Virus record (IMG/VR): IMGVR_UViG_3300025617_000013
Span: 1-64,000 of that record
Reading direction: 5' to 3' (one strand)
Length of the DNA: 64,000 bases
From: a virus
Shown: positions 7,755 through 32,313 of the stretch, piece by piece
Layout: each line of letters opens with the position of its first letter
How positions within the stretch are numbered: the stretch's first letter is position 1
The notes under the pieces: generated by a model
Told to the model about the DNA's origin: nothing
Seen by the model: the letters and a program-made list of their open reading frames with translations, nothing else
Databases searched by the model: none
Position numbers and translations under genes: made by a program

Positions 7755-8165
7755 ATGGCATTTGAAGCGAAGAAAATAAACCCACTAGACCTACAACCAA
7801 GAAAAGCTGTAGGAGTATCTATACCTTTTTCGGGTAAAGCTGTGTTTAATTCTACGTATCAAACTAAGGATGCTATAAAAGCTAATTTAATTAATTATAT
7901 TTTAACAGGTAAAGGAGAAAGGTATTTTAACCCTACATTTGGATCCGGTTTAAGAAATTTAATCTTTGAAAATATTAATCGAGATAATCTAACTGAACTC
8001 GAATTCTTAATAAGAGACGCTTTACAGAAATATTTTCCTAAATTAGAGATTTTAAACTTAAACGTACAAGGAGCACCAGACTCTAACTTAGTAAGTTTTA
8101 CTCTTAATTTCAGAGTTGTAGATACTCAAGTAGAGGACGAAATAACAATAAACTTTGAACAATAA
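7755..8165 (+). CDS. 25: Baseplate wedge protein, gp25 family
   Basis: A 136-residue protein of the GPW/gp25 family. The characteristic segment is GKGERYFNPTFGSGLRNLIF, followed by LEFLIRDALQKYFPKLEIL and the closing strands VSFTLNFRVVDTQVEDEITI. In T4, gp25 joins the inner baseplate to gp53 and the sheath and is one of the most conserved contractile-tail proteins. Length is typical. The stop overlaps the gp6 start (TAATG), the usual gene order. Confidence 0.92.
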   Translation: MAFEAKKINPLDLQPRKAVGVSIPFSGKAVFNSTYQTKDAIKANLINYILTGKGERYFNPTFGSGLRNLIFENINRDNLTELEFLIRDALQKYFPKLEILNLNVQGAPDSNLVSFTLNFRVVDTQVEDEITINFEQ

Positions 8166-9967
8166 TGGCTCAAGATATTAAAATACAGTATACAGACAAG
8201 AATTTTTCTAATCTACGTAATCAATTAGTAGAACTAGCAAAAAATTACTTTCCTGATACCTATAACGATTTTTCACCAACATCACCAGGGATGATGTTTA
8301 TGGAAATGTCTGCATACGTTGGGGACATTCTTTCTTTCTACCAAGATAGCCAGCTACAGGAAACTTTTTTACAGTACGCACAAGACCCAGGAAACTTATA
8401 CGCAATGGCGTATATGATGGGATATAAACCTCGAGTTACTACAGCTGCTGCTGTTGATGTAGAAATAACACAAAGAGTAGCCTCAACCGGCGCCTCCTTT
8501 GTTCCTAATTTTAACCAGGCAATAACCGTAAATGAAAACGGAGTACTATCAGCAGGAGAACAGAAGTTTATATTACAAGATAGGGTTGACTTTTCTTTCT
8601 CAAGTTCTTATTCTCCTACCCTTGCCACAATATACAGTATAGATGCTAACGGTAATCCCACAGAGTACGAATTAAAAAAATCAGTAAAAGCACAATCTGG
8701 TGAGATTATTACAAAATCTTTTAATATTGATACTGCGAGTAAGTTCTTAACCTTGACTGTAGACGATTCGGATATTATAGGAGTTTTAGATATTAAAGAC
8801 GGAGACGACAATACATGGTATGAAGTACCGTATTTAGGACAAGATACAGTCTTTACAGAAGCCATAAATACTGGGAATAATTCAGACTCAGTACCCTATC
8901 TACTTACATCTATTAGAACCCCTAATAGGTTCGTTACTAGGTTTAATTCTACAGGACAACTGCAAATTCAATTTGGAGCAGGTATGTCAACTTCCGACGA
9001 CGATGTATTTTTACCAAACCCGACTATAGTAGGATCCGGAACTAACCAAGGGGTAAAAAGAGCAGATCATGCATACGATCCCTCTAACTTTTTATTTAGC
9101 GCAGCTTACGGTAATGCTCCTTCCAACACAACCTTGACGGTAAGGTATATTAAAGGTGGCGGTATTGCATCGAATATAGAAGCAAATACTTTAATTGGAC
9201 AGGAAGCAATTTCTATATCAGCAACAGATAACACGTATGTAAGCACTGTAACATTTAACAATCCTCAACCAGCCGTAGGAGGTAAAGACGGAGATACAGT
9301 AGAAGAAATTAGACAGAACTCTTTAAGATCTTTTAACGAACAGGGTAGAATTGTAACTAAGCAGGATTACGCATTTAGAGCAATGACACTCCCCACCACA
9401 TTAGGTTCTATCGCTAAAACATATGTAACAACAGACGCTGATATTCCAACTGCTGATACAAATGTATATAACCCGCTTGGAGTATGTATATACGTGTTAG
9501 CATACGATAATAATAAAAAAGTAGTAAAAGCAACACCTGAACTAAAAACTAACCTTAAAACATACATCTCAGAATTCAAACCTTTAACAGATGGATGTAC
9601 CATAAAAGACGCATATATAATTAATTTTGGCGTGAAGTTTGATATTGTAACTCTACCTAGTTATAATTCAAGAGAAGTAATATTTAACTGTACCAATGCT
9701 TTAAAAGATCATTTTAATATTGATAAATGGTCTATTAATCAACCTGTAAATTTATCTTCGATTTATACTCTGTTAGATAGGGTAAAAGGAGTACAAACAG
9801 TTCAAAGTGTGAAACTAGAAACTAAAGTTGGCGGTAATTATTCTAGTTTTGATTACGACATAGAAGGGGCAACCAGGAGTAATATAGTATACCCGTCATT
9901 AGACCCAATGATATTTGAATTAAAATACCCGAACATCGATATACAGGGTAGAGTAACAACATTATAA
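8165..9967 (+). CDS. 6: Baseplate wedge protein, gp6 (baseplate J family)
   Basis: A 600-residue protein with the gp6/J signature. The N-terminal segment YNDFSPTSPGMMFMEMSAYV...GDILSFYQD is typical of the family, followed by LYAMAYMMGYKPR. The central part includes YIKGGGIASNIEANTL and a J-like segment ending GRIVTKQDYAFRAMTL. The C-terminal part has a ferredoxin-like region (YILAYDN-like strand ICIYVLAYDNNKK). In T4, gp6 forms the ring that links baseplate wedges. It directly follows gp25. Confidence 0.92.
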   Translation: MAQDIKIQYTDKNFSNLRNQLVELAKNYFPDTYNDFSPTSPGMMFMEMSAYVGDILSFYQDSQLQETFLQYAQDPGNLYAMAYMMGYKPRVTTAAAVDVEITQRVASTGASFVPNFNQAITVNENGVLSAGEQKFILQDRVDFSFSSSYSPTLATIYSIDANGNPTEYELKKSVKAQSGEIITKSFNIDTASKFLTLTVDDSDIIGVLDIKDGDDNTWYEVPYLGQDTVFTEAINTGNNSDSVPYLLTSIRTPNRFVTRFNSTGQLQIQFGAGMSTSDDDVFLPNPTIVGSGTNQGVKRADHAYDPSNFLFSAAYGNAPSNTTLTVRYIKGGGIASNIEANTLIGQEAISISATDNTYVSTVTFNNPQPAVGGKDGDTVEEIRQNSLRSFNEQGRIVTKQDYAFRAMTLPTTLGSIAKTYVTTDADIPTADTNVYNPLGVCIYVLAYDNNKKVVKATPELKTNLKTYISEFKPLTDGCTIKDAYIINFGVKFDIVTLPSYNSREVIFNCTNALKDHFNIDKWSINQPVNLSSIYTLLDRVKGVQTVQSVKLETKVGGNYSSFDYDIEGATRSNIVYPSLDPMIFELKYPNIDIQGRVTTL

Positions 9968-12071: not shown

Positions 12072-15000
12072 ATGGCAAAGATAACATATACATTATTAGA
12101 TAGAGAATTTAACTCTATACCGGAGAACGAGAACTACTCTTCGGCTGATCTTAATTTGATCGATTCTTTCGAAATAAATAAAAACTATAAACCGGAACGA
12201 CATTATATAGAAAGTCATTTCTATTCATTAAATAATAAAAAAATATTTTCGGTTTATGATTACAAGCTTAATACTTCTACAGAAACATCAGCTGAGGGAG
12301 ATATTACAAGCCTTTCATTAGAACCAGAAAAACTCTCAATTGAAAACGGTTTCACAGGTGTTGATCATAAAATAGTATTCCATTTTCTAAACGATCTATA
12401 TACATACACCTCTGATAAACAACGTTTTTATATTAATAGTATATCTCAAGATAGAACAGAAATACTTCTTTATTCTGATAAAATAGATGTTAACAGAATT
12501 ATTAACATAACAGAAGATTTAAAAGAGAAAATTTCTAATGAATCTTATTTTGAAGAATATTGGCTTAATTTAGGAGATAACGATTTATTTATCGTAACTA
12601 ATATAGATGTATTTGAATTAGACGATAAATATACCGTAGCTTTAAAACTATACGAACCTTTACCGGAACGTTTTGAACTAAAATATGAAGCACAGCTAGT
12701 AGAGAAAATAAGCGACTCTTTAGTTGTAGAAGTACAAGTTGATGTAGAAGAGGAACCGGAAGTATTCCCAAAGTTGAGACAAGCAAACTTTGACGTAGAG
12801 TTAGACTTAAATACTCCTACTCCTACTCAATACTTTAATTATGACGAGCTATTTAGTTATTCTAATTTAAATTCAAATAGAGAAATATTTTCTTACATAA
12901 ATGAGAATAGTGTAGATATAAACATTAACTATTCTAATTATGAAAACTTTATCAATTTTTCCTCAGCAAAAGAAAGATTAGAAAATTTTAAATATAAAGT
13001 ACAACTACTTCAAACATATCAAAGCAGTAAAGATCAAATCTCTAACTCTACCAACAATTCAGGGAGTTCCGCTCACTACGACAACCTTATTAAAGGTGTA
13101 GTAGATAACTTTGATCATTACGAAAAGTTTTTATACTTTGAAAGCGGCTCCAACAGTTGGCCGAAAAGCACATCAGTTAAACCCCACGTTAACCTGCACT
13201 CAACTTCAACTGAAGCTATAAGTTGGTATGCAAATCAATTAACAAGCGCCTCTAATTATGATGTATCCAATTATGATTTATTAGCTAATGCATTACCCTC
13301 TTATATAGCAGAAGATACTAACAACAGTAGTGCAGTTCTGTTTACTCACATGATAGGGCAGCATTTTGATAACTTATGGATATATACTAAAGCAGTAACA
13401 GATAAGTACAATAACGATAATAGAGTTGATGTAGGTATATCAAAGGATTTAGTAAGAGATGCTTTAACTAGCTTAGGTACTAAGTTGTATAATTCTGCCG
13501 AAGGCACTAACGACTTATTTAGGTATATAATTTCCGATACTTATGATAGCGGTAGTATAGAAGAGATAGTTAATACTTTTATAGAAGTACCGAATATACC
13601 AACAGACCGCCAACCTATTTCCAGAAAAAACTACGAAGGCGAACTTTATAAAAGGATATACCACAACCTTCCCTTTCTATTAAAAAGTAAAGGTACAGAA
13701 AGAGGCCTACGAGCACTTATAAACTGTTTTGGTATACCTTCTGACTTTTTAACTATTAAGCAATACGGAGGTCAAATAATAGGCTCAGATAAGTTTTTAG
13801 GGTATGAAGGAGAATCTACCAGCTCTATAGGTAAAGTACGATATGAAACTAGAGCTAGCGGTTCAGTAGGTAGAGTCTTAACTCAAGATAAATCTATACA
13901 GAAAACAGAGGAAGATAAAACACAGGATATTCATAGATTAGAGGTAGGCTTTTCCCCTTCCGATAATATCAATGATTATATACTATCTCAACTACCCTCT
14001 TCATTTAATATAGACGACTATATAGGAGATCCAAGAGATTTAAATAAAAACTCCTATACAGACTTATTTAAAGAAGCCCATAGAGTATTGCACGCTAGTG
14101 TAGAGCGAACTCAACTAAATGATTTCGTTAGAATATTAAAGTTTTATGATAACGTATTATTTAAGATGATCAAAGACTTTATACCCGCAAAAGCAACTTT
14201 AGATGCAGGTATAATTATTAAACCGCACATTCTTAATAGATCAAAAGTTAAATCACCTGATTTATCTGGAACTAGACCAGAATACACCGGTAGTATAGAT
14301 ACAGCATTCGTCTCTGGGTCTCAAGGAGGTGTGTACGATACAACAAGTATAACAAATACAACTGCTCATACACTAACTATCCCCACTCTTTTAGGTTCTA
14401 CAACTTTTGCAGTAGATAGAGAAGAACCTATGTTTAACGGCGAACTTAGCGGTAGCCATATAGAAATTACCGATGGCGAACTAAACTCAGGTAATAAATT
14501 TAAAACAGTTAATATTCCTAATCTAAAGTATGACATCATACCTGTTGACCAAAGTGTGGGTGCAGTCTACACATCTTTCAATGCCTCTACAGCAAACGAA
14601 TCAACAGACGAATTAGCATGTGGAATGTCGTATACCTTACAAACATACTACCATGATGGAGAATTACAGTACCCTGAATTAGGAGATCGTGTTTTCCCAA
14701 CTATAAACTCAGCAGTAGGATTAGACGGAAACGGTAGATGGTATAGAGTTCCTCAAGCAGGTATAGTAATAGCTATATCTGGTTCTGCAGACCTCGGTAA
14801 AGTCTATGCAGTTACTCCTTGTAGTAATTTCGACAGTACACCACCTTCTGGATATACAGCTGCCTGGTCTATCCCCTCTTACATAAACGCTGCTACATCA
14901 GCATCTAAAGGATTCTATATTTATGGAGCAACAGAATCTGATGCAACATATCATGCAACAGCTTCCCTAGAATCTGATCCAAGCACTAAAGTGTACGCTA

Positions 15001-16211
15001 CCGGTACTGTAGGTATGAATAGCGGAGCACCGAATTACATTGTGACAAAAACTATAAATACCACAGCACTAGCAGACGGTGAGAATGTATTTTTAGATGT
15101 TACTTTAGCAGATGCTAACGGTAATATGGGAGCATTTGCTCCTAATGTATCTAGCTTACTAACATTAACAGCTAGTTTAAAAGATACTAATATACCTACA
15201 GGTTATACTACTAGGTTCACAACATCTAATTATAACACTAACGAAACCTCTAATACAACAGGTAATTTCTATTTTGTTTTAGAGAATATACCTCCTAACA
15301 CAGTCGGTACATGGTACTTTAACCTAACCTCTACAGGTGGTGGAACTAGTTACAGTAATAGTGGAAACCTATATAATAGCTCTACAAGGATTTTTGGTAT
15401 AGGTAATAATACCCACCAACTTACTGCTGGTACAGTTACACTCACATCTTACATAGTAGATAGCGCAGGTAATCAAGGACCTAACGTAACTGATCAAATA
15501 CAGTTCTCTCCACAAAGTGGTAATTTATACGTGATAGGTAATACAAATACATCACAACTTACATCCGGTTATCAACAGTTCTCTATAGGGGTAAATGTTG
15601 AACCAAACTACTTAAATTGGAGCTTGATAAAATCCAGCTGGATTAGCATATCAGGAGCTAGTGGTACAGGTGATGATAGTTCAATCAATGTCTATATATC
15701 CGCCAATACTAGTTCAAATAATAGGTTCGGTTCTATAACATTAAGAGATTCTAACAATACTTCATTGGATGCCATTTTAATCGTACAGGCAGGAGAGAAT
15801 TGTATCGCTCCTCATACCCTTATAACGATGGGGGACGGTACATCAAAACCAGCTGGAGAATTACAAGTAGGAGATGAAATAAGAACTAAACATGAAAAAA
15901 CATTAGAGAAAACTTATGATAGAATAACCAGGAAAGAAGTTTATACCTCTCCAAGAGTTAAGGTATACATAGGTGATAAAGAAATAGTATGTTCACCTGG
16001 GCATAGATTCTATGTAGATAATGCTTCCGATTGGGTAGCAGTTACAGACTTAAAAGAAGGAGATACCTTATCAGGTAAAACATATATAAAAACAGAGGAG
16101 CATAGTGACGGAGATGTAATTAAACTTTCTGTTGCTAACTCTAAAACATATATTTCAGAAGGTATATTATCACATAATGTGAAAGGCGACGACTATTATT
16201 ATTGGAATTAA
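12072..16211 (+). CDS. Giant baseplate protein with BACON-like and C-terminal Hint domains
   Basis: A 1379-residue protein. About residues 500-600 contain LYKRIYHNLPFLLKSKGTER and ALINCFGIPSDFL, a pattern of wedge or tail-protein-I-like proteins. Residues about 1155-1241 resemble a BACON domain (NWSLIKSSWISISG, NNRFGSITL, ILIVQAGE). Residues 1244-1369 are a complete Hint domain: C1244 (CIAPHTLI), AGELQVGDEI, CSPGHRFYV, WVAVTDLKEGDTL and the terminal H1368-N1369. Ten residues follow, beginning with Val. With no Cys, Ser or Thr after the Asn, this resembles bacterial intein-like domains that cut themselves rather than splice cleanly. It probably processes the baseplate protein after synthesis. 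Confidence 0.8.
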   Translation: MAKITYTLLDREFNSIPENENYSSADLNLIDSFEINKNYKPERHYIESHFYSLNNKKIFSVYDYKLNTSTETSAEGDITSLSLEPEKLSIENGFTGVDHKIVFHFLNDLYTYTSDKQRFYINSISQDRTEILLYSDKIDVNRIINITEDLKEKISNESYFEEYWLNLGDNDLFIVTNIDVFELDDKYTVALKLYEPLPERFELKYEAQLVEKISDSLVVEVQVDVEEEPEVFPKLRQANFDVELDLNTPTPTQYFNYDELFSYSNLNSNREIFSYINENSVDININYSNYENFINFSSAKERLENFKYKVQLLQTYQSSKDQISNSTNNSGSSAHYDNLIKGVVDNFDHYEKFLYFESGSNSWPKSTSVKPHVNLHSTSTEAISWYANQLTSASNYDVSNYDLLANALPSYIAEDTNNSSAVLFTHMIGQHFDNLWIYTKAVTDKYNNDNRVDVGISKDLVRDALTSLGTKLYNSAEGTNDLFRYIISDTYDSGSIEEIVNTFIEVPNIPTDRQPISRKNYEGELYKRIYHNLPFLLKSKGTERGLRALINCFGIPSDFLTIKQYGGQIIGSDKFLGYEGESTSSIGKVRYETRASGSVGRVLTQDKSIQKTEEDKTQDIHRLEVGFSPSDNINDYILSQLPSSFNIDDYIGDPRDLNKNSYTDLFKEAHRVLHASVERTQLNDFVRILKFYDNVLFKMIKDFIPAKATLDAGIIIKPHILNRSKVKSPDLSGTRPEYTGSIDTAFVSGSQGGVYDTTSITNTTAHTLTIPTLLGSTTFAVDREEPMFNGELSGSHIEITDGELNSGNKFKTVNIPNLKYDIIPVDQSVGAVYTSFNASTANESTDELACGMSYTLQTYYHDGELQYPELGDRVFPTINSAVGLDGNGRWYRVPQAGIVIAISGSADLGKVYAVTPCSNFDSTPPSGYTAAWSIPSYINAATSASKGFYIYGATESDATYHATASLESDPSTKVYATGTVGMNSGAPNYIVTKTINTTALADGENVFLDVTLADANGNMGAFAPNVSSLLTLTASLKDTNIPTGYTTRFTTSNYNTNETSNTTGNFYFVLENIPPNTVGTWYFNLTSTGGGTSYSNSGNLYNSSTRIFGIGNNTHQLTAGTVTLTSYIVDSAGNQGPNVTDQIQFSPQSGNLYVIGNTNTSQLTSGYQQFSIGVNVEPNYLNWSLIKSSWISISGASGTGDDSSINVYISANTSSNNRFGSITLRDSNNTSLDAILIVQAGENCIAPHTLITMGDGTSKPAGELQVGDEIRTKHEKTLEKTYDRITRKEVYTSPRVKVYIGDKEIVCSPGHRFYVDNASDWVAVTDLKEGDTLSGKTYIKTEEHSDGDVIKLSVANSKTYISEGILSHNVKGDDYYYWN

Positions 16212-22446: not shown

Positions 22447-25400
22447 ATGGCTATAACGTTTAGAGACGAAAAGGGTGCTCCTCTAACTCATGAGGAATTA
22501 GATGCTAATTTTAGGTCGTTTTTCTTTACTGCATCCTTTGGAGATAACAACTTAACTCTTCAAAGAAAAGACGGAGTAACAGTAAACGTACCAGTTGGTG
22601 GAGAAGCATTTGCTGACTTTCAAGCAAATGGTGGATCTATTGGTGATGTATTTATAGCTAACAGTCAAATGACTGGTAGTAGAATTATTATAGATCTACT
22701 ACAAGGTCAATTCTACGACAAAACAAAAGCAATGAACTCCGATGGAGGAGGTCTGAGCTCGGATGAATGGTATATAGATTTTGAACCGGCAGCATCTGCT
22801 CCTTACTATGTACATTTTGGTTCTAATTTTGCAATTTCTTCTAGTGGACATCTGTATGCTTCTGGAGCTGTAATAGAAGGGGATATAACTGCATCTGGCG
22901 GACTTATTGGAGGTTTCTCTGTTAATAGAGATGCAATTTCCGGTCCTCTAACACTCGGTACTCCTTCCTTCTTTATCTCAGGTTCAGCAGGTAATGATGA
23001 TCACTTTATATCAGCTTCTAACTTTAATATAAAAGGAAGCGGGGATATTACAGGTTCAGCTGTATTATTCTCCGGAGGTACTATTGCCGGTTGGGATATA
23101 ACTAACTCTCAAATACGTAAAGGGTCAAATATAGTGTTAGATGCTACGAACGAAAGTATCTACATTAATAACTCTACTTTCGGTAATGAAGGTATTCAAT
23201 TAGAATACAATAGTGGAGCACCAAGATTTTATGTTGGAGACGGTTCAAGTAGTTTTGTTAAGTATGACGGAACTAATGTCACTGTAGCAACAAGCCTGCT
23301 AGAAATCTCAGCATCTAATATAGAAATATCATCTACCGAAGCTTCTATGTCTTTAGGTAACGGAAATATTGAGCTTTTAGGTCAGGATGGTAAAATTATA
23401 GCAGGTACTACTAATAAGGTAACTCTACAAGGAAATGCTACAGATGCATTTTTAGTAGCAGGTACAAAAACAGGATTTGCAACAGATGATGCCGGTATTA
23501 TAATCGGTATGGATGCTACTGTTCCTACATTGGATCTTACGAAAGATGCAAGTAACTATGTAAGGTTCGATACAACAAGTGGTGTTGATATTAAGACAGA
23601 TACGTTTAAGTTAGATACAACTTATTTCGACATTGATACAAGTACACAAAGACTTAATATATTTGATACTGCTTCTGCAGAAATTATTAGATTAGGAGAA
23701 ATATCAGATGATGCTTCTGATCTATACGGTTTAAAAATTTATAACGGCTCTGGTACCGGTAGTGCTGATACGATAGCAATGTTCGGCCAACAGGGTAATA
23801 AAATCGGAGGTTGGGAAATAACCGACTCTCAGATAAGAACAGTACCTAGTTCTGGTTTTGGAGGTTCTTACGGAGCTGATGAAACAGGACTTATAATACA
23901 TTCAGATGGTAAGTTAGAATCTTCTAATTTTGTTACCAATGTTAAAGGGTGGAGAATAGATACCGCCGGTAATGGTTCTGCTGAATTTGAAAATATGAGA
24001 ATACGTGGTACTTTAAGAACCACAGTATTTGAAAAAGAAAGTGTAAACGTAGTCGGAGGACAATTAATGGTTGCTAATGCAACTACTATTGAACCTCTAC
24101 GAGATGCTGATGGAACTATTATAGCTGGTTCATCTTCGTATGCAGATACAGCTGTTACTTTTTCTGTAGCTAATGTTTCTGGATTTGCAGAAGGAGAAAT
24201 TATAAAAGCAAAATCAGTAGATGCAACAGGTTTTTCAGTAGAGTACTTCTACGTATCAGGTAGCTCTAGATATTCAGAACATGGTAACTTATCCTACAAT
24301 ACAGGTTCCATAGACCCTGATGGATTAGCTGGAGAGATATACGTTGAAAGATCGTTTGGAGGAGCACCAGCTGCTTCTTCATCTCTAACTACCCTATCTT
24401 CCGAAATACCAGATGATATAGTTACTACTATTGATGTAACTTCTGCTACAGGTATTACCACTCAGAATATTTTAAAAATAGGTGATGAGAGGTTAAAAGT
24501 TACCGCTATCAACGGCACTACTTTTACTGTAATAAGAGGGTACCATGACACAGCTCCTAATTCTCATATAAACGGTAGCACAGTCTTTTTAGTAAATACA
24601 GATAATGAATTTTTAGCAGGACTAGTATCCTCAGCTAAACCATACAATGAAGGTCAAGTATTAGTTTCTACCGGTGTATATAATCCTTCTGAAAATATAT
24701 CTTCTGGGTATATCCTAATGAATGCTAATCCTAGAGATGTTTCTACTCCATATATGGATATAGTAGAAAGAACAGGATCAGGAGTATATGATTTAGAATT
24801 AAGATCTAGATTAGGTGACCTATCAGGTTTATCATCAGGCTACTTATACGGTAATAACGAACCAGGATTTGGTTTATATACTGAGAATGGATTCTTTAAA
24901 GGTGCTATTACTGCTGATACAGGATCTATAGCAGGTATACTTCATGTAGCAACAGTACAAGGAGGTTTAGAAACTGGACAGAAGATATCTATCGGTAGAG
25001 ATGTTTCTGGTACCAATGATGGTATATATGTAAACAACAATAACTACTGGTACACAGACGGTGCTTGGAAAGTAGGCGGTGCAACTAATTTTATATCTCT
25101 AGATAATTTTACTGATGGTAATCTAGTAGTAAGAACTGAAACCTTTACTTTAGATACTCCTAATATGATAATTTCTAGTTCCCTTAATAACGGAACTATG
25201 ACATTAGGTGCTAATGCTGATACTATTACAGAAACAGCAGAAGCAGGTATATACATGGACGGTAACGGCAAGTTTAGAGTCGGAACCGGAACTACAGGCA
25301 ACAATTACATATATTGGGATGGTAGTACTTTAAATATTAAAGGTGCTATCGATATAACAGGAGGTACGGGTGTTAATACAGACGAACTTAATGCTGCTAC

Positions 25401-28400
25401 TAGCTCAGCCATAACTACAGCTAATGAATTTACTAATCAGTCTACAGCATCACTATCAGGTTCTATATCCGATGTAACAGATGAACTTGATGATAAAATA
25501 TTTACTGACAGTACCGGTAGAGCAGTAAAAGCACCAACAGCTAACACAGAAGGATTATATTTAGCATCTACTAATATAGGATTCTATAAAGACGGAGAAT
25601 GGAAAACCTACATGGATAATGAAGGGGATTTCTTTTTAACTGGATCGGCAGGAAATAAATTAGCATGGGATTCTTCAACAGGAGTCTTAGAAATAGCTGG
25701 TGCAATTAACATAACCGGAGGTAATGCAGCAACACAAGATTACGTAACTGGCAGTATTGACAGTATATCAGGTTCTTTAGCTAGCTCTATATCATCTTCT
25801 AATTCTGAATTATCTAGTTCTATTAGTTCTTCTAATGCTACACTAGTTAGTCAACTTAATGCAGTAGAATCTTTAGCGGAAGGAAAAACATCTATATTCA
25901 AACAAGCCACTGCTCCTGCTACTGAAAGTAGAATTAATGGAGATATGTGGATCGACTCTGACGATCAAAACAGAGTATACATTTTTGATATAGGTACTGA
26001 AACCTGGGTAACTACACCAGACGGCACTTACGATCAAACAGACCTTATAAATCAAACATCTTCTTCTTTATCTGGCTCTATAGCTTTAGATATATTCACA
26101 GATGCAACCGGTAAATTAGTCAGAACACCAGATACTTCTTCAGCAGGACTTTACTTAGGAGATACTAACTTAGGGTTTTACGATGATGGTGAGTGGAAAA
26201 CATACATGGCCAATAATGGTAATTTCTACCTAACAGGTAGTGATTCAAATTACCTATTTTGGGATGGTACTAGTTTAAATATAGCAGGTTCAATAAATAT
26301 TACTTCTGGAAATGCAGCAACAACAAGCTCAGTTTCAGATGCACAAATAGCAGCTCAGAATTTCGCAGCAACAGCTTCTGCTAATGCAGTAACAAGTGGT
26401 AGTAATGCAGCAGATGCAGCTTTAACCTCATCTATAGATTACGCTAATCAAGCTACTGCTTCTTTATCAGGCTCTATAGCAACAGATATTTCTGCTTCTA
26501 ATCTAAATGTTAATCAAATATCAGCATCACAAGCATTAATAAATGACGGAGTAACAGGATTCTTAGACGGTAAGAACTCTGTATTTAGACAACAAACAGA
26601 ACCTAGTTCAACTGGAAGAGTAGATGGTGATATTTGGATAGATACCAATAGTGATCCTGCAAATAAAGTATACGTATGGGCAACTGATACATTTGTAGCA
26701 ACACCAGACGGTACCTACGATCAATCAGGACTTATAAGTCAAACATCAGGTTCGATAGCTGCTGACATATTTACAGACTCTACTGGTAAATTAGTAAAAA
26801 CACCTAATCTATCAGGAGCAGGTTTATTCTTAGGAGATTCTAACTTAGGATTTTACGGTGACGGTAAGTGGAAAACTTACATGGCTAACAACGGTAACTT
26901 CTTCCTTACAGGTAGTGATGGCGGTTTCCTAAAATGGCAAAACGGAGCACTTGAAATCAAAGGTTCTATTAATATAGTCGGTGGAAATGCTGCAACACAA
27001 GATTTCGTAAATTCAGCAACAGGCTCAATTTCAAGTTCTTTATCAAGCTCTATAAGTGATAGTTTTATAGCTAACTCATCTTCAGCTGCAAACGCTCAAC
27101 AAACCGCTGTTATAGCATCCGGAGAAGCAGCATTAGCTGAACAAACAGCTTTAACCGCTTCTGCTTTAGCAACAACTGCTACAGAAAGAACAGTAGATGC
27201 AGATGGTAAAATAACATTTAATCCAACACCTTCAGGTACTGGATTATTTATGAGTGCTGATAACTTAGGTTATTATGATACTAATACTTGGAAAACTTAC
27301 ATGTCTGCATCAGGTGATTTTTATCTTGCTGGAGACGGAAATAACGGACTTTCATGGGATGGTTCTGATTTAAGTATTGATGGTACGATAGTAGCTAGAG
27401 ACGGTTCAATAGGAGGTATAACATTAGAAAGTAATAAACTATACAACGGAACAGGTACACACGGTAACTCTAATACAGGTTTCTATATAGATTCTTCTAG
27501 TAAGTTTTCATTAGGAGATAAATTAGTTTGGGACGGAACAACCCTTACAGTTTCAGGTAATATAACAGTTACTAATTCAAATGATTTTGCTTCTCAAGCG
27601 GAGTTAGATGCAGCAACAGGCTCATTACAAAATAGTATAGACGGTATTAATAGTTCTACTAGCTCATTAGTAAATCCATCTTCTTATGCATTTGGAGGCG
27701 GTGGGTTTAGTTTAGGTAACGTACCAAGTCCTTCTGCCGGTCTACATTTAGGAGCAGATAAATTAGGATACCACAATGGTACCTCTTGGCTAACTTACAT
27801 GGATAACTCAGGACACTTCTTACTATCAGGTTCAGGAGATGATTCATTATCTTGGAATGGAGCTACTTTAAGAATAGGTTCACCAGGTGTAGGTCCTTCA
27901 TTAGCATATCAATTTGTCGGATCTTTAGATACCAACGTATTTGATATATCTTCAAACTTAACAGTAACATCAGTAACATCACCAGTAGTTGGAGTCAAAT
28001 TACGAACTCCTTCAGACGGATGGAATAATGGATTACACTCCAAAGCTCTTTTTGACAGACAAGACGGAGGTATATTTGAATGGGATATTGTAGTAGGACC
28101 TCTTAACGCTAGAATGATGTTTGGTCTTTATAAGGAAAATCCATCATCCTTTTCTTACAGTCAGTTACCACATGCAATCTATATCGATACTTCAGGTAAT
28201 ATATCGATATACGAAAACGGAGGTAGCCCTTCAGGAATCTTAGCATCAAATGATTATACAGCAGATAACGACTATTCAGAAAATCAACAGTATAGGCTTA
28301 GAATTCAACCTCTACCGACAGGTGCAAGATATGAAATATTTAAAGATGGTGATTTCACAACACCTCATTCTACCTATGATTCATCTGCAAATGGAGTTAC

Positions 28401-31400
28401 AGAGAGATATCTAAGACCAGGTATTTCAGTATATGAATCTGATCCTAATGCCGGAGTTATAGTACAAGCTATAGCTGGAGGTTCTAGTTTAGGAATAGCA
28501 ACTAAAATATCAGGTAATACGATTCAAACAGGTGTATTAGAATCATCTAACTTATCTACTACTTTAGGTTCACAATTTAACTTAAATGACGGTACATTTA
28601 AATTAGGAGGTACTTCTTCACCTAAATTAAATTGGAACGGCAGTACATTATCAGTTGTTGGTAATATAACAGTTACAAACCCTGATAGCTTTGCAACACC
28701 TGCAGAAAAGAATAAAGAAGACTTTAAGATTATTCTTTTAGCTACAGGTAGTATAGGTTCTACCAATACAGACTCAGTAGCGTATCTAGCAAGTCAAGGA
28801 TATACAGGTGGTAACGGCAGTACTCACTTCTACGATAATAATAATGACTCAGACGGCAACACCAACCCTGCTAATATTTCAGGATACGATACTCAAGACT
28901 ACGATCTGTACATATTTGACTGTAGAAACTGGGCTATAAATGGTACAGAAATAAAGCTAGCTCTTGATTTATTTGATAACGGTAAATCGGTTCTTATAGC
29001 AGGTAATGATAACACAGTAGCAAACTATACAGGTTCTTATAATACAGAGTGGCCGATTAAAGCAACAGTAGCACGAAGCGGTACAGGCTGGATGGTAGGA
29101 CCATCAGCTTCGGGTAAAGGTTTACCTGCTTCTCATCCTATACTAGCAGGCATATCAGGTAATGTAGCAACTACAACTAGTGGTGATGGCGGTACAATAA
29201 TCACACAGTTAAAAGCATTTCCTAAAGGTGGAACAGTAGTACAGCCATTTTCTATCACAGATGAAACAACATCTGTAACAAATACAAATGATGTATTTAC
29301 AACTAGTGGAACTGGTCAAGGTATTACAAGTTTTATTGCCACTAACCCTAGAGGTGGTAGGATGGTTAATCTTAACTTATTCGCTTTAAATACCACAGGT
29401 GGGTATAGATCTCTATCAGAACAAGCAGCTAAAAACTTAACAAGTTTCTTACTTAGAACAGACCCTGCTATCGAAGCACACTATATGCAGGTTACTTCTA
29501 TTACCGGTGAAATGGTAACAACAGGTAAGATTAATTCTTCTAACTTAAATGAAGGATCTGGTACATACACTACTGCCGGTACATTATTTGATTTAGATAA
29601 TGGCGCAATAAAAAGTAAATCTTTTGCAATCGATAGTTCAGGTAATGCATTCTTCAAAGGTAATCTTTCAGGTGCTTCCGGTACATTCTCAGGAACATTG
29701 TCAGCTACAGCTGGTACTATTGGAGGTTGGACTTTAGGTAGTAATACTTTATCTAGTACTGGTATTGCTGATACTTCCGGGTATACCACAGGAGGTATTA
29801 CCTTAAATGCAAACGGTAACGGAAGTATACATAGTAAAAACTTCTATATAGATACATCAGGTGATGCATTCTTTAGAGGAAGTTTGAGCGGTGCAGATAT
29901 TACAGGAGCTACAGGTACTTTTGCCGGTCAAATAGAAGTTGGAGGTCAAAACCTAGATTCGGTAATCACTCAAACCTCTACAAATCAAAACTCATTATTC
30001 CCTAATCCTGACTTTGGAGAAATAGATCCTATATACACCTACAGACCATTTGGTGTATTTGCTACATATGGAAGTAATGTACGAGAAAATATCAGCTATT
30101 CAGGCTCTAATGCGGAATCAGGAATATTAGAACTACAAAGTGATAGTGACACCTCTATAGGTATGGCATTCTCAGCATTTACAGTAATACCTGGTCAAAC
30201 ATATAAGTTCTATATACGTATAGCTCATGAAGTTAATACGTCATCTAATGGAATGTATATTAGAGTTTATGAATCAACTAGCACATTAAGTTCAACTGAA
30301 TTTTTTGTATCACAAAATGGTGCAAGTACAACCTGGGAAACCGGAGGTAAAGCTGGAACTGCTAGACCTCTTGAGAATAGAACTATAGATGGTGTAGCAT
30401 CTTTTAGTGCTTTTGAAGACATTGCTTTCCATACTGATTATAAAATTTATCAATTTACTTATACAGCAACTTCTACTGCTAAAGCAGCATCTGTAAATAT
30501 TTTAAACTGGACTGGAGGCGGAACAAACGGACTATACGTATCTAGAATGTCTGTTATCCCGGTATCACAAGATGTTTATACCGGTATCATAGGGGGTTGG
30601 ACTATGGATAGCACAGGTATATTTGCCGGACCAAAAGATTCAAATGGATATGCAGACGCCGGCGGTATTACTCTATCGGCAGGTGGTTCTATACATGCCA
30701 AACAGTTCTACATAGATACCACAGGTGATGCATTCTTTAAAGGTACTTTAGCTATCGGTACAGGTAATAATATATTTAAAGCTACACCTGGTACAGGTAT
30801 ACAAGTTGGACATGCAACATTTGCATCTGCACCATTTAGAGTTACCGAAGCAGGATCAGTATCAGCAACCTTAGGAAATATAGGGAACTGGATTATTAGT
30901 TCTGGTGAATTGAGAGACAGTACTGGAAGAATTGAATTAGATCCTACAGATAGAGCTATTAGGATAAATGACAGTGGCGGTACTAATAGAGTAGAGATAA
31001 GCTCAGAGAATCTAAGCGCAGTATCCCCTACTAGAGCATTAGATGCAGGGTATGCTACTTTTGAAACCAGCATGTATACTAGAAGAGATTCTTCCTCTGT
31101 CGCAGCAACCGTTGCTTTTGATCAATCTAGTACAACTACTGTAAACCAGAAACTCTTCCAATTGGCTCAGTATACATCTTGGGGACCAGGTTATAGCGGT
31201 AGAGATATAAGTGCTTACAAATATACATCTGGATATACACACAGCGGTGGAGATCTACCTGTCATTCTTCCTATCGCAAGTAACCCAAGCACAGGTAGAC
31301 TAACTGTACAAGTACCAGACCTATCAGACACTGGATATCCGACTAACACTTGGTACGATAAGTTTTCTGCAGCTTTTCTCCAACCAAACCAGATGAATCT

Positions 31401-32313
31401 AAAGTACGTTCTTCAAAGAGAAGAATCAGGAGGAACAAGCGGTCCTGCCTACTGGGCAGACGTATATGGTACTTTTACTTCAGTTAAGCTAGCTGAAACA
31501 TTTACACCTAATTATGTTGGAGTAGGTAAAAATGACCTAAGACCTTTATCCCCAGGATCCTCAACATATGTAGGCTACGCATATTATTCATCAGATGAGA
31601 ATGACTGGAATTGGAATGCTACTACTATAAGCAGAACATTCACGAATTTAACTGCAGGTACGTATAGATTAGGGGTAAAGTATGAGTTAGACTATAGTTT
31701 AAACCTAAACCTTACACAAGGTAATAACACTACAGGAGCATCAACGTATTCGCCTGCAATTTCTATAGATTTAAGACTGTATGAATTTCACGCAGAAAAC
31801 ACCCCAGTAACCTTCGGAACTTTCTCTCAAAAAGTAAACGTTGGATTAAACGGAGTACAGGTATCCGGTGTTTCCGGATCTGTAGTACTAGGAGAGGTAA
31901 ATGATACCGGAGTAGCTTCAATTTACGGAGATGCATTAATTACCGGTAAACTTACTGCTAATACTACTGCATTCTCGGATGTAAGGTTAAAAGACAATAT
32001 ACAAGATATAGAGAACCCTCTAGAATTAATTGGTGGTCTACAACCTCGTTCATTCAATTGGAACCGTACTGTTAACCCATATGAAACTAGAGGTAACTCG
32101 TACGGATTTATTGCACAAGAAATAACAGGCAGTTTACCTGAATTAGTAGGTGTTGAATTAAGAGAGGTAGGGCATACACGTAACTTACTTACCTTAGATC
32201 AAATGCCAATTATAGCTCTAAATACAGCAGGAATAAAGGCTCTTTTAGAGAAAGTAGAAAGTCTAGAAACGAAAGTGCAACAGTTAGAAACTGAAGCAAG
32301 CGGCTCACAATAA
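22447..32313 (+). CDS. Giant tail fibre, 3288 aa, with S74 chaperone
   Basis: The N-terminus (MAITFRDEKGAPLTHEELDA) is shared with the collar fibre and probably anchors both at the same site. Residues 1019-1820 hold five diverged copies of a shaft repeat (DGEWKTYM ... GNFYLTGS ... LSWDG). About residues 1819-2018 look like a lectin-type jelly roll, 2089-2341 an alpha/beta globular domain (YDLYIFDCRNWAINGTEIKL), and 2519-2707 a carbohydrate-binding-like sandwich. The last 112 residues are an S74 intramolecular chaperone (FSDVRLKDN, catalytic S3177 and K3182 by analogy) that trims itself after trimer folding. It is the probable main receptor-binding fibre. Confidence 0.9.
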   Translation: MAITFRDEKGAPLTHEELDANFRSFFFTASFGDNNLTLQRKDGVTVNVPVGGEAFADFQANGGSIGDVFIANSQMTGSRIIIDLLQGQFYDKTKAMNSDGGGLSSDEWYIDFEPAASAPYYVHFGSNFAISSSGHLYASGAVIEGDITASGGLIGGFSVNRDAISGPLTLGTPSFFISGSAGNDDHFISASNFNIKGSGDITGSAVLFSGGTIAGWDITNSQIRKGSNIVLDATNESIYINNSTFGNEGIQLEYNSGAPRFYVGDGSSSFVKYDGTNVTVATSLLEISASNIEISSTEASMSLGNGNIELLGQDGKIIAGTTNKVTLQGNATDAFLVAGTKTGFATDDAGIIIGMDATVPTLDLTKDASNYVRFDTTSGVDIKTDTFKLDTTYFDIDTSTQRLNIFDTASAEIIRLGEISDDASDLYGLKIYNGSGTGSADTIAMFGQQGNKIGGWEITDSQIRTVPSSGFGGSYGADETGLIIHSDGKLESSNFVTNVKGWRIDTAGNGSAEFENMRIRGTLRTTVFEKESVNVVGGQLMVANATTIEPLRDADGTIIAGSSSYADTAVTFSVANVSGFAEGEIIKAKSVDATGFSVEYFYVSGSSRYSEHGNLSYNTGSIDPDGLAGEIYVERSFGGAPAASSSLTTLSSEIPDDIVTTIDVTSATGITTQNILKIGDERLKVTAINGTTFTVIRGYHDTAPNSHINGSTVFLVNTDNEFLAGLVSSAKPYNEGQVLVSTGVYNPSENISSGYILMNANPRDVSTPYMDIVERTGSGVYDLELRSRLGDLSGLSSGYLYGNNEPGFGLYTENGFFKGAITADTGSIAGILHVATVQGGLETGQKISIGRDVSGTNDGIYVNNNNYWYTDGAWKVGGATNFISLDNFTDGNLVVRTETFTLDTPNMIISSSLNNGTMTLGANADTITETAEAGIYMDGNGKFRVGTGTTGNNYIYWDGSTLNIKGAIDITGGTGVNTDELNAATSSAITTANEFTNQSTASLSGSISDVTDELDDKIFTDSTGRAVKAPTANTEGLYLASTNIGFYKDGEWKTYMDNEGDFFLTGSAGNKLAWDSSTGVLEIAGAINITGGNAATQDYVTGSIDSISGSLASSISSSNSELSSSISSSNATLVSQLNAVESLAEGKTSIFKQATAPATESRINGDMWIDSDDQNRVYIFDIGTETWVTTPDGTYDQTDLINQTSSSLSGSIALDIFTDATGKLVRTPDTSSAGLYLGDTNLGFYDDGEWKTYMANNGNFYLTGSDSNYLFWDGTSLNIAGSINITSGNAATTSSVSDAQIAAQNFAATASANAVTSGSNAADAALTSSIDYANQATASLSGSIATDISASNLNVNQISASQALINDGVTGFLDGKNSVFRQQTEPSSTGRVDGDIWIDTNSDPANKVYVWATDTFVATPDGTYDQSGLISQTSGSIAADIFTDSTGKLVKTPNLSGAGLFLGDSNLGFYGDGKWKTYMANNGNFFLTGSDGGFLKWQNGALEIKGSINIVGGNAATQDFVNSATGSISSSLSSSISDSFIANSSSAANAQQTAVIASGEAALAEQTALTASALATTATERTVDADGKITFNPTPSGTGLFMSADNLGYYDTNTWKTYMSASGDFYLAGDGNNGLSWDGSDLSIDGTIVARDGSIGGITLESNKLYNGTGTHGNSNTGFYIDSSSKFSLGDKLVWDGTTLTVSGNITVTNSNDFASQAELDAATGSLQNSIDGINSSTSSLVNPSSYAFGGGGFSLGNVPSPSAGLHLGADKLGYHNGTSWLTYMDNSGHFLLSGSGDDSLSWNGATLRIGSPGVGPSLAYQFVGSLDTNVFDISSNLTVTSVTSPVVGVKLRTPSDGWNNGLHSKALFDRQDGGIFEWDIVVGPLNARMMFGLYKENPSSFSYSQLPHAIYIDTSGNISIYENGGSPSGILASNDYTADNDYSENQQYRLRIQPLPTGARYEIFKDGDFTTPHSTYDSSANGVTERYLRPGISVYESDPNAGVIVQAIAGGSSLGIATKISGNTIQTGVLESSNLSTTLGSQFNLNDGTFKLGGTSSPKLNWNGSTLSVVGNITVTNPDSFATPAEKNKEDFKIILLATGSIGSTNTDSVAYLASQGYTGGNGSTHFYDNNNDSDGNTNPANISGYDTQDYDLYIFDCRNWAINGTEIKLALDLFDNGKSVLIAGNDNTVANYTGSYNTEWPIKATVARSGTGWMVGPSASGKGLPASHPILAGISGNVATTTSGDGGTIITQLKAFPKGGTVVQPFSITDETTSVTNTNDVFTTSGTGQGITSFIATNPRGGRMVNLNLFALNTTGGYRSLSEQAAKNLTSFLLRTDPAIEAHYMQVTSITGEMVTTGKINSSNLNEGSGTYTTAGTLFDLDNGAIKSKSFAIDSSGNAFFKGNLSGASGTFSGTLSATAGTIGGWTLGSNTLSSTGIADTSGYTTGGITLNANGNGSIHSKNFYIDTSGDAFFRGSLSGADITGATGTFAGQIEVGGQNLDSVITQTSTNQNSLFPNPDFGEIDPIYTYRPFGVFATYGSNVRENISYSGSNAESGILELQSDSDTSIGMAFSAFTVIPGQTYKFYIRIAHEVNTSSNGMYIRVYESTSTLSSTEFFVSQNGASTTWETGGKAGTARPLENRTIDGVASFSAFEDIAFHTDYKIYQFTYTATSTAKAASVNILNWTGGGTNGLYVSRMSVIPVSQDVYTGIIGGWTMDSTGIFAGPKDSNGYADAGGITLSAGGSIHAKQFYIDTTGDAFFKGTLAIGTGNNIFKATPGTGIQVGHATFASAPFRVTEAGSVSATLGNIGNWIISSGELRDSTGRIELDPTDRAIRINDSGGTNRVEISSENLSAVSPTRALDAGYATFETSMYTRRDSSSVAATVAFDQSSTTTVNQKLFQLAQYTSWGPGYSGRDISAYKYTSGYTHSGGDLPVILPIASNPSTGRLTVQVPDLSDTGYPTNTWYDKFSAAFLQPNQMNLKYVLQREESGGTSGPAYWADVYGTFTSVKLAETFTPNYVGVGKNDLRPLSPGSSTYVGYAYYSSDENDWNWNATTISRTFTNLTAGTYRLGVKYELDYSLNLNLTQGNNTTGASTYSPAISIDLRLYEFHAENTPVTFGTFSQKVNVGLNGVQVSGVSGSVVLGEVNDTGVASIYGDALITGKLTANTTAFSDVRLKDNIQDIENPLELIGGLQPRSFNWNRTVNPYETRGNSYGFIAQEITGSLPELVGVELREVGHTRNLLTLDQMPIIALNTAGIKALLEKVESLETKVQQLETEASGSQ
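25501..27890 (+). repeat. Five diverged coding repeats in the fibre shaft
   Basis: Copies begin near 25501, 26095, 26770, 27193 and 27721. Each encodes a GLYL...LGFYDDGEWKTYM-like strand pair, a GxFxLTGS loop and an L-W-D-G segment, most followed by INITGGNAAT. Spacing is about 420-680 bases, with variable coiled linkers between copies. Confidence 0.75.

Follow-up and report, generated by a model that had tools for sequence, protein, structure and literature searches.

The window analysed here, bases 1-64,000 of a virus record of 87,663 bases, carries on its plus strand the gene of a tail or baseplate protein of 1379 residues, at whose end a BACON domain, a predicted Hint domain and a short tail follow one another. 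The features are:

12072..16211, plus strand: gene of the 1379-residue tail/baseplate protein (open reading frame; N-terminal identity to Flavobacterium phage immuto)
12072..14537, plus strand: conserved N-terminal region, residues 1-822 (191 viral relatives)
15633..15791, plus strand: BACON domain, residues 1188-1240 (Pfam PF13004 above its cut-off)
15801..16178, plus strand: Hint domain, Cys1244 to Asn1369 (Pfam, PDB sequence match, AlphaFold2, Foldseek, VIA, alignments)
15801..15803, plus strand: Cys1244, predicted nucleophile of an N-S acyl shift (invariant in 50/50 rows of alignment A3)
15993..16004, plus strand: Ser-x-x-His1311, presumed block B (His invariant in 50/50 rows of A3)
16173..16178, plus strand: His1368-Asn1369, predicted Asn cyclisation and C-terminal cleavage (alignments)
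16179..16208, plus strand: ten-residue C-terminal tail (varies between relatives except for Lys at +2)
16182..16184, plus strand: Lys1371, +2 after Asn (54 of 55 distinct short-tail domains; 50/50 rows of A3)

Residues 1-822 share 45% identity with the hypothetical protein immuto26A_162 of Flavobacterium phage immuto, and the genes 7755-8165 and 8165-9967, upstream of 12072-16211, match baseplate wedge families. With the N-terminal part of approximately 800 residues shared and the wedge genes upstream, the protein fits the immuto-like tail protein family, and the position of its gene suggests the label of a baseplate protein. A PHROGs scan of the protein gave weak matches to families of unknown function. 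The AlphaFold2 model of residues 1-822 is poor (pLDDT 57.8), and it found no PDB fold match at E 0.001. Elsewhere in the window, 22447-32313 encodes a protein of 3288 residues with a weak match, at its end, to the distal subunit of a long tail fibre.

The C-terminal Hint domain

An earlier note, made from the sequence alone, had described at the C-terminus an intein-like Hint domain with a first Cys, an SPGHRF segment and a final His-Asn, followed by Val and with ten residues left, and had placed a BACON-like domain in front of it. This layout was confirmed in frame 12072-16211: Cys1244 is followed by Ser-Pro-Gly-His-Arg-Phe at residues 1308-1313, which includes the segment that we take to be block B, by His1368-Asn1369, and then by Val1370, Lys1371 and eight more residues up to the end of the protein. 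PF13004 matches the BACON domain at residues 1188-1240 with 26.8 bits (cut-off 25).

Since both Pfam Hint models stay below their cut-offs, the case for a Hint domain rests on several lines of evidence. With the domain alone as query, Pfam gives Intein_splicing (E 9e-7) and PT-HINT (E 5e-5), the curated cut-offs being missed with 29.2 of 35.8 bits for PF14890 and 24.1 of 27.7 bits for PF07591; NCBIfam NF038136 also stays below its cut-off (34.4 of 700). The best match of a single-sequence search of the PDB is the BIL2 domain of Tetrahymena (E 4e-5), and a profile of 50 relatives matches the BIL domain of C. thermocellum best (E 4e-12) and BIL2 with E 1e-11. AlphaFold2 models the domain with pLDDT 91.9 and pTM 0.76. 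For this model BIL2 is also the best Foldseek match (E 3.6e-10), and VIA superimposes it on BIL2 (6y75) with Z 20.2 and rmsd 1.7 over 134 residues, the other Hint structures giving Z 20.1 (2lwy), 19.9 (1mi8) and 18.0 (1at0). From sequence matches and the predicted structure, a complete Hint fold of the BIL-like (intein-like) kind is well supported for the C-terminal domain.

The alignment A3 consists of the window and 49 of the 58 domains that were listed at that stage; nine were left out, among them four of a second type described below. Cys1, the block B His and the His-Asn pair are present in 50/50 rows at a mean column identity of 31%, the rows having been chosen for the Cys at the start and the His-Asn at the end, with the block B His as no criterion. 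All residues typical of A-type BIL domains are found in the window domain, namely Cys1, the block B His, the C-terminal His-Asn and a non-nucleophilic residue at +1. Since the domain keeps the residues required for cutting at either end and has no Cys, Ser or Thr at +1, it appears to be of the BIL type and not a splicing intein; in this respect sequence, predicted structure and catalytic positions agree with the earlier note. The note had further suggested that self-processing may set the domain free or attach it while the baseplate is assembled.

Comparison with known systems gives a similar picture. BIL2 from the Tetrahymena BUBL1 locus (6y75, 6tmm) is the closest in both single sequence and fold, and shares the first Cys, the C-terminal Asn (mutated in the crystals, C1A-N143A), a catalytic His69 (accessible part of PMC8616854) and a Gly-Gly motif (PMC9200820, likewise in part). 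However, BIL2 lies between ubiquitin-like domains of a ciliate, whereas the phage domains close tail proteins; the latter end in His-Asn-x-Lys, BIL2 having been compared up to its Asn. The A-type BIL domain of C. thermocellum (2lwy) is alike in fold (Z 20.1), His-Asn end and non-nucleophilic +1, but according to the accessible text of PMC7765530 A-type domains come from hypervariable regions of nonconserved bacterial proteins, and not from phage tail proteins with a kept Lys at +2. Splicing inteins (gp41-1, Npu and Ssp DnaB) share the fold (Z up to 19.9), the first Cys, the block B His and the His-Asn. A splicing intein was nevertheless rejected for the window, as Val1370 stands at +1 in place of Cys, Ser or Thr, which excludes ordinary transesterification, and the C-extein is missing, with ten residues remaining. 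The Hog domain of Hedgehog resembles the window domain in C-terminal position, fold (1at0, Z 18.0) and, as far as the accessible part of PMC7664689 goes, in the thioester step. It was rejected as well, since the window domain keeps His-Asn and has no sterol-recognition (sterol-binding) region, merely ten residues following Asn1369.

Within the record of 87,663 bases, no second Hint domain was detected besides that of the window with PF14890 and the window's own BACON-Hint part as queries; PF07591 returned nothing and missed the window's Hint domain too.

Distribution on phage tail proteins

From 191 viral relatives of the tail protein, 80 were kept, some of them nearly identical. They comprise 18 loci with a terminal Hint domain, 45 complete proteins without it and 17 broken at the contig end, of which one (L020) breaks off within the Hint domain. 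Fourteen of the 18 domains are of the window's type. The other four (L024, L025, L026, L045) represent a second type that begins with Cys-Cys, ends in His-Asn-Lys and lies in the C-terminal 180 residues, at the same place in homologous tail proteins. In a tree of 65 relatives, from which the ones broken at contig ends had been dropped, the second type occurs on three separate branches, and the window type is confined to one clade of 16 members with a support of 1.0, 15 of which carry the domain, the window included. L018 lies inside this clade yet has no Hint domain and stops 13 residues past its BACON match (25.7 bits with the last 200 residues alone, 20.4 with the whole protein, cut-off 25). 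In immuto26A_162, which resembles the window protein in residues 1-822 and in its upstream wedge genes, no Hint domain was found either.

The Hint domain is under purifying selection, with dN/dS values between 0 and about 0.43 (36 pairs from nine sequences, dS being above 1 in many). In a profile search at E 0.01 of all loci collected up to that stage, a check which depends less on the choice of rows than A3 does, 13 rows were missing the Cys or the His-Asn. Since none of these falls within the 45 complete Hint-less relatives, no worn-out Hint domain was found there.

Searching with an alignment of 14 Hint domains yielded 108 viral relatives, of which 80 were kept. Judged by sequence matches, at least five different kinds of phage tail protein end in the Hint module. 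We counted 55 distinct short-tail domains, defined as those that start with a Cys, end in His-Asn and are followed by no more than 20 residues. By blastp, 23 of them (the window's copy counted) sit on relatives of the window protein and 32 on other proteins, including L101, a short fragment that permits no judgement. Ten of the 12 short-tail loci scanned with PHROGs match tail families: the domain is attached to J-like tail fibres in L127 and L155, follows the N-terminal part of a phrog_376 tail protein in L129, L135, L136, L139, L141 and L157, and ends a tail fibre in L150 (with a Pfam Phage_Tail_Tip match, too) and a phrog_2048 tail protein in L132. The remaining two, L113 and L126, have no PHROGs match, and blastp places them, like L114, among the relatives of the window protein. 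At E 0.01, Pfam gave no Hint match in five of the seven Hint-bearing tail proteins scanned. A scan of bacterial genomes added five loci, according to their record titles from Sphingomonas (three), an uncultured Sphingomonadaceae bacterium and Stakelama.

There are also loci with two such genes. L132:2497-3504 and L132:3898-6351 are neighbouring genes of one phage locus that each end in a Hint domain, and the Hint-bearing genes L137 and L142 lie approximately 45 kb apart on one contig of 72 kb (IMGVR_UViG_3300048851_000184).

The phrog_376-type tail protein is annotated as a single chain in BPP-1 (681 residues), phiV10 (823) and HTVC010P (854), and it is split in the Hint-bearing loci. In all seven loci that were read (L129, L135, L136, L138, L139, L141, L157), a Pro/Gly-rich linker and the Hint domain stand at the split point, and the stop codon overlaps the ATG of the next gene. 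The second gene was tested against PHROGs in four of them (L129, L136, L141, L157); here, the match of the Hint protein stays within profile positions 2-108, and that of the next gene spans positions 102-710. The first protein of L136 aligns to residues 1-173 of HTVC010P and the second from residue 180, and the boundary between the two parts falls near residues 97-104 in BPP-1 and phiV10. These alignments to the single-chain proteins place the linker and the Hint domain exactly at the junction. HTVC010P has at the same place an extra domain, similar to the one preceding the linker, and no Hint domain.

Not all relatives are of the tail-end kind; by their sequences, some are inteins or Hint domains internal to longer proteins. 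L156 lies within a UvsX-like recombinase, and L161, L162, L167 and L168 lie within longer proteins and have Ser at +1. In L154, L164 and L165, the Cys is absent from its expected place in frames of 1933-2410 residues, and the His-Asn is followed by Val in L154 and by Ser in L164 and L165; the latter two may be true inteins in large proteins. In annotated phages, the window domain as query gave 69 records at E up to 10. Among the 40 of these matches that were listed, most concern terminase, helicase and other enzyme genes, and the best is the unannotated faecal phage MT835519, which is also the only record found with two other family members as queries at E 0.01.

The lysine after His-Asn

Before the 55 domains were counted, 13 rows without the expected Cys or His-Asn were dropped, and also L134, L111 (cut off) and ten complete domains with longer C-terminal parts. 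The tail after the Asn has 2-15 residues. At +1, Ile (21), Val (8), Leu (7), Asn (7), Thr (5), Gly (3), Ala (3) and Lys (1) are found. At +2, 54/55 domains possess Lys, although this residue accounts for 4.1% of these proteins overall and the neighbouring tail positions are variable. The one remaining domain, L172, belongs to the second type and has its Lys at +1; the same holds for three further distinct domains of this type, which were among the ten dropped for length. Grouped into clusters at 50% identity (the window copy and L008 left out), Lys at +2 is present in 14/15, a count which does not represent 15 independent events since the clusters share ancestry. The search patterns contained Ser-His-Asn and in no case the Lys, and Cys and His-Asn served as filters. 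The Lys count is therefore the only one of these statistics that is free of the choice of domains.

As a yardstick we used other Hint domains in 299 and 196 genomes, drawn from the phylum and the order of a Sphingomonas. Lys occurs at +2 in 1/14 (L203) and at +1 in 1/14 (L200) of the distinct non-tail-type domains with a readable His-Asn; in L202 and L203, which have two His-Asn pairs each, the second pair was used, and L190 and L205 (no His-Asn) as well as L195/L198 (doubtful) were left out. The bacterial tail-type domains, from the five genomes and L201, all have Lys at +2.

The internal Hint domains L103, L106, L109, L111, L119, L123 and L124 have Lys at +1. In L103, L104, L106, L109, L111, L119 and L123-L125, Lys-Ser or Lys-Thr starts at +1, with 190 to 1545 residues to follow; of the proteins scanned with PHROGs, L119 matches phrog_358 and L103 and L109 match nothing. 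That the internal relatives (L103, L119 and others) splice through this Lys would be a bold reading.

Within eight residues before the Cys, 37/55 domains possess a Gly-Gly pair, which is absent in 18/55. The window has Gln-Ala-Gly-Glu-Asn there and no poly-Gly.

Possible roles of the Hint domain

With moderate confidence, and on the grounds of sequence and modelled structure, we propose an autoprocessing function for this Hint domain of the BIL kind, which would free the end of the tail protein. Cys1244 would take over the acyl group of Asn1243 in an N-S shift aided by His1311, which would turn the BACON end of the tail protein into a thioester. Water or an amine would resolve the thioester and free the Hint domain, and cyclisation of Asn1369 would release the ten-residue tail. 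This would leave a mature tail protein that ends three residues past the BACON match, much like Hint-less L018. The analysis shows the predicted fold, the residues for both cleavages, the missing nucleophile at +1, the purifying selection and the recurrence on tail proteins; that the domain cleaves, when it does so, what becomes of the thioester and what the Lys does are what we infer within this scheme. As far as the accessible parts of the reports go, BIL domains yield predominantly cleaved products (PMC7664689; PMC7765530), and BIL2 forms an isopeptide bond to lysine and is able to attach its neighbour to further proteins (PMC8616854), which together favour autoprocessing. Against autoprocessing alone count the Lys kept at +2, which cleavage does not explain, and the scores of both Pfam Hint models below their cut-offs. 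Moreover, a domain that did no more than remove itself would bring no advantage compared with L018, where there is no such domain to remove; a further role of the domain is therefore likely.

One such role, and a form of autoprocessing rather than a reading exclusive of it, might be conjugation: by analogy with BIL2, the thioester could be passed to a lysine or another amine of the same or a second molecule, resulting in an isopeptide bond. We put this forward tentatively, and plain self-removal is the main alternative to it. Lys at +2 in nearly all tail-type domains, as opposed to one of the 14 other proteobacterial ones, speaks for conjugation, and so does the best structural match, BIL2, with its reported Lys isopeptide bond (PMC8616854, accessible part). 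The Gly-Gly before the Cys in most domains recalls the conserved RGG motif reported for BIL2 in the accessible part of PMC9200820, but the window is among the domains that do not have it. The Hint domain of the split tail proteins sits on a long Pro/Gly-rich arm, which would suit conjugation as well. Candidate acceptors are the Lys that follows His-Asn, a different protein of the virion and an amine on the host surface. With such short tails after the Asn, joining in cis would yield little product; furthermore, kinship between the clusters weakens the Lys count, and the Lys could simply aid Asn cyclisation.

An unlikely alternative is that the Hint domain assists the folding or oligomerisation of the tail protein and afterwards removes itself. 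Tailspikes possess self-cleaving C-terminal chaperone domains, to which such an aid could be likened, and the position of the Hint domain at the extreme C-terminus of tail proteins (ten of the 12 loci scanned with PHROGs) would be in line with it. However, L018 and 44 other complete relatives manage without the domain, the Lys at +2 is left unexplained, and we are not aware of any Hint domain that acts as a chaperone. It is quite improbable that the domain stays uncut on the virion in a binding or structural role beside the BACON domain. Pfam does call BACON a putative binding domain, but a displayed domain would not need its cleavage residues, and yet the block B His, for which the rows were not selected, is kept in every row of a rather diverse alignment. 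A decaying intein that lost its C-terminal host part is very improbable: in the split group the module lies between two parts of one ancestral protein, as inteins would, and splicing is possible for the five domains with Thr at +1, but purifying selection, a Lys kept past the end of the intein and the presence on several kinds of tail protein are unlike decay.

The strongest new evidence is the near-invariant Lys, the recurrence on tail proteins and the split tail gene, and because of these three we are inclined to favour a genuine role in processing or conjugation. It is conceivable, if somewhat less probable than conjugation as such, that in several kinds of phages the tail-tip Hint domain is an ATP-free conjugating device which passes its thioester to a lysine or another amine, with His-Asn-x-Lys as part of the chemistry. 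If this is true, a tail protein would be glued to another virion protein or bound covalently to the host cell.

The Hint fold and its chemistry are already known, as are inteins in phage enzymes, for instance the terminase intein of phiCbK (accessible part of PMC3556154). Hint domains in uncultured phages are not new in themselves either, since a library of predicted viral structures contains protein names with 'Hint domain' for such phages. In the literature searched, mainly outside subscription journals and represented in part, we found no description of a terminal Hint domain on phage tail proteins or of a His-Asn-x-Lys end. The accessible parts of PMC7664689, PMC7765530, PMC5259590, PMC3556154, PMC5526547, PMC8616854, PMC9200820, PMC8790156 and PMC2362128 contain no terminal Hint domain on a phage tail protein.

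The findings hint at a trimming or chemical linkage of the tail tip in some phages. If the Hint domain is active, it would be, as far as we know, the first case of intein-kind autoprocessing in phage tail assembly or adsorption, and the family would be a natural source of compact protein-ligating domains. With a kept Lys and BIL2 as best structural match, the old question of the purpose of BIL domains becomes a simple bench test.
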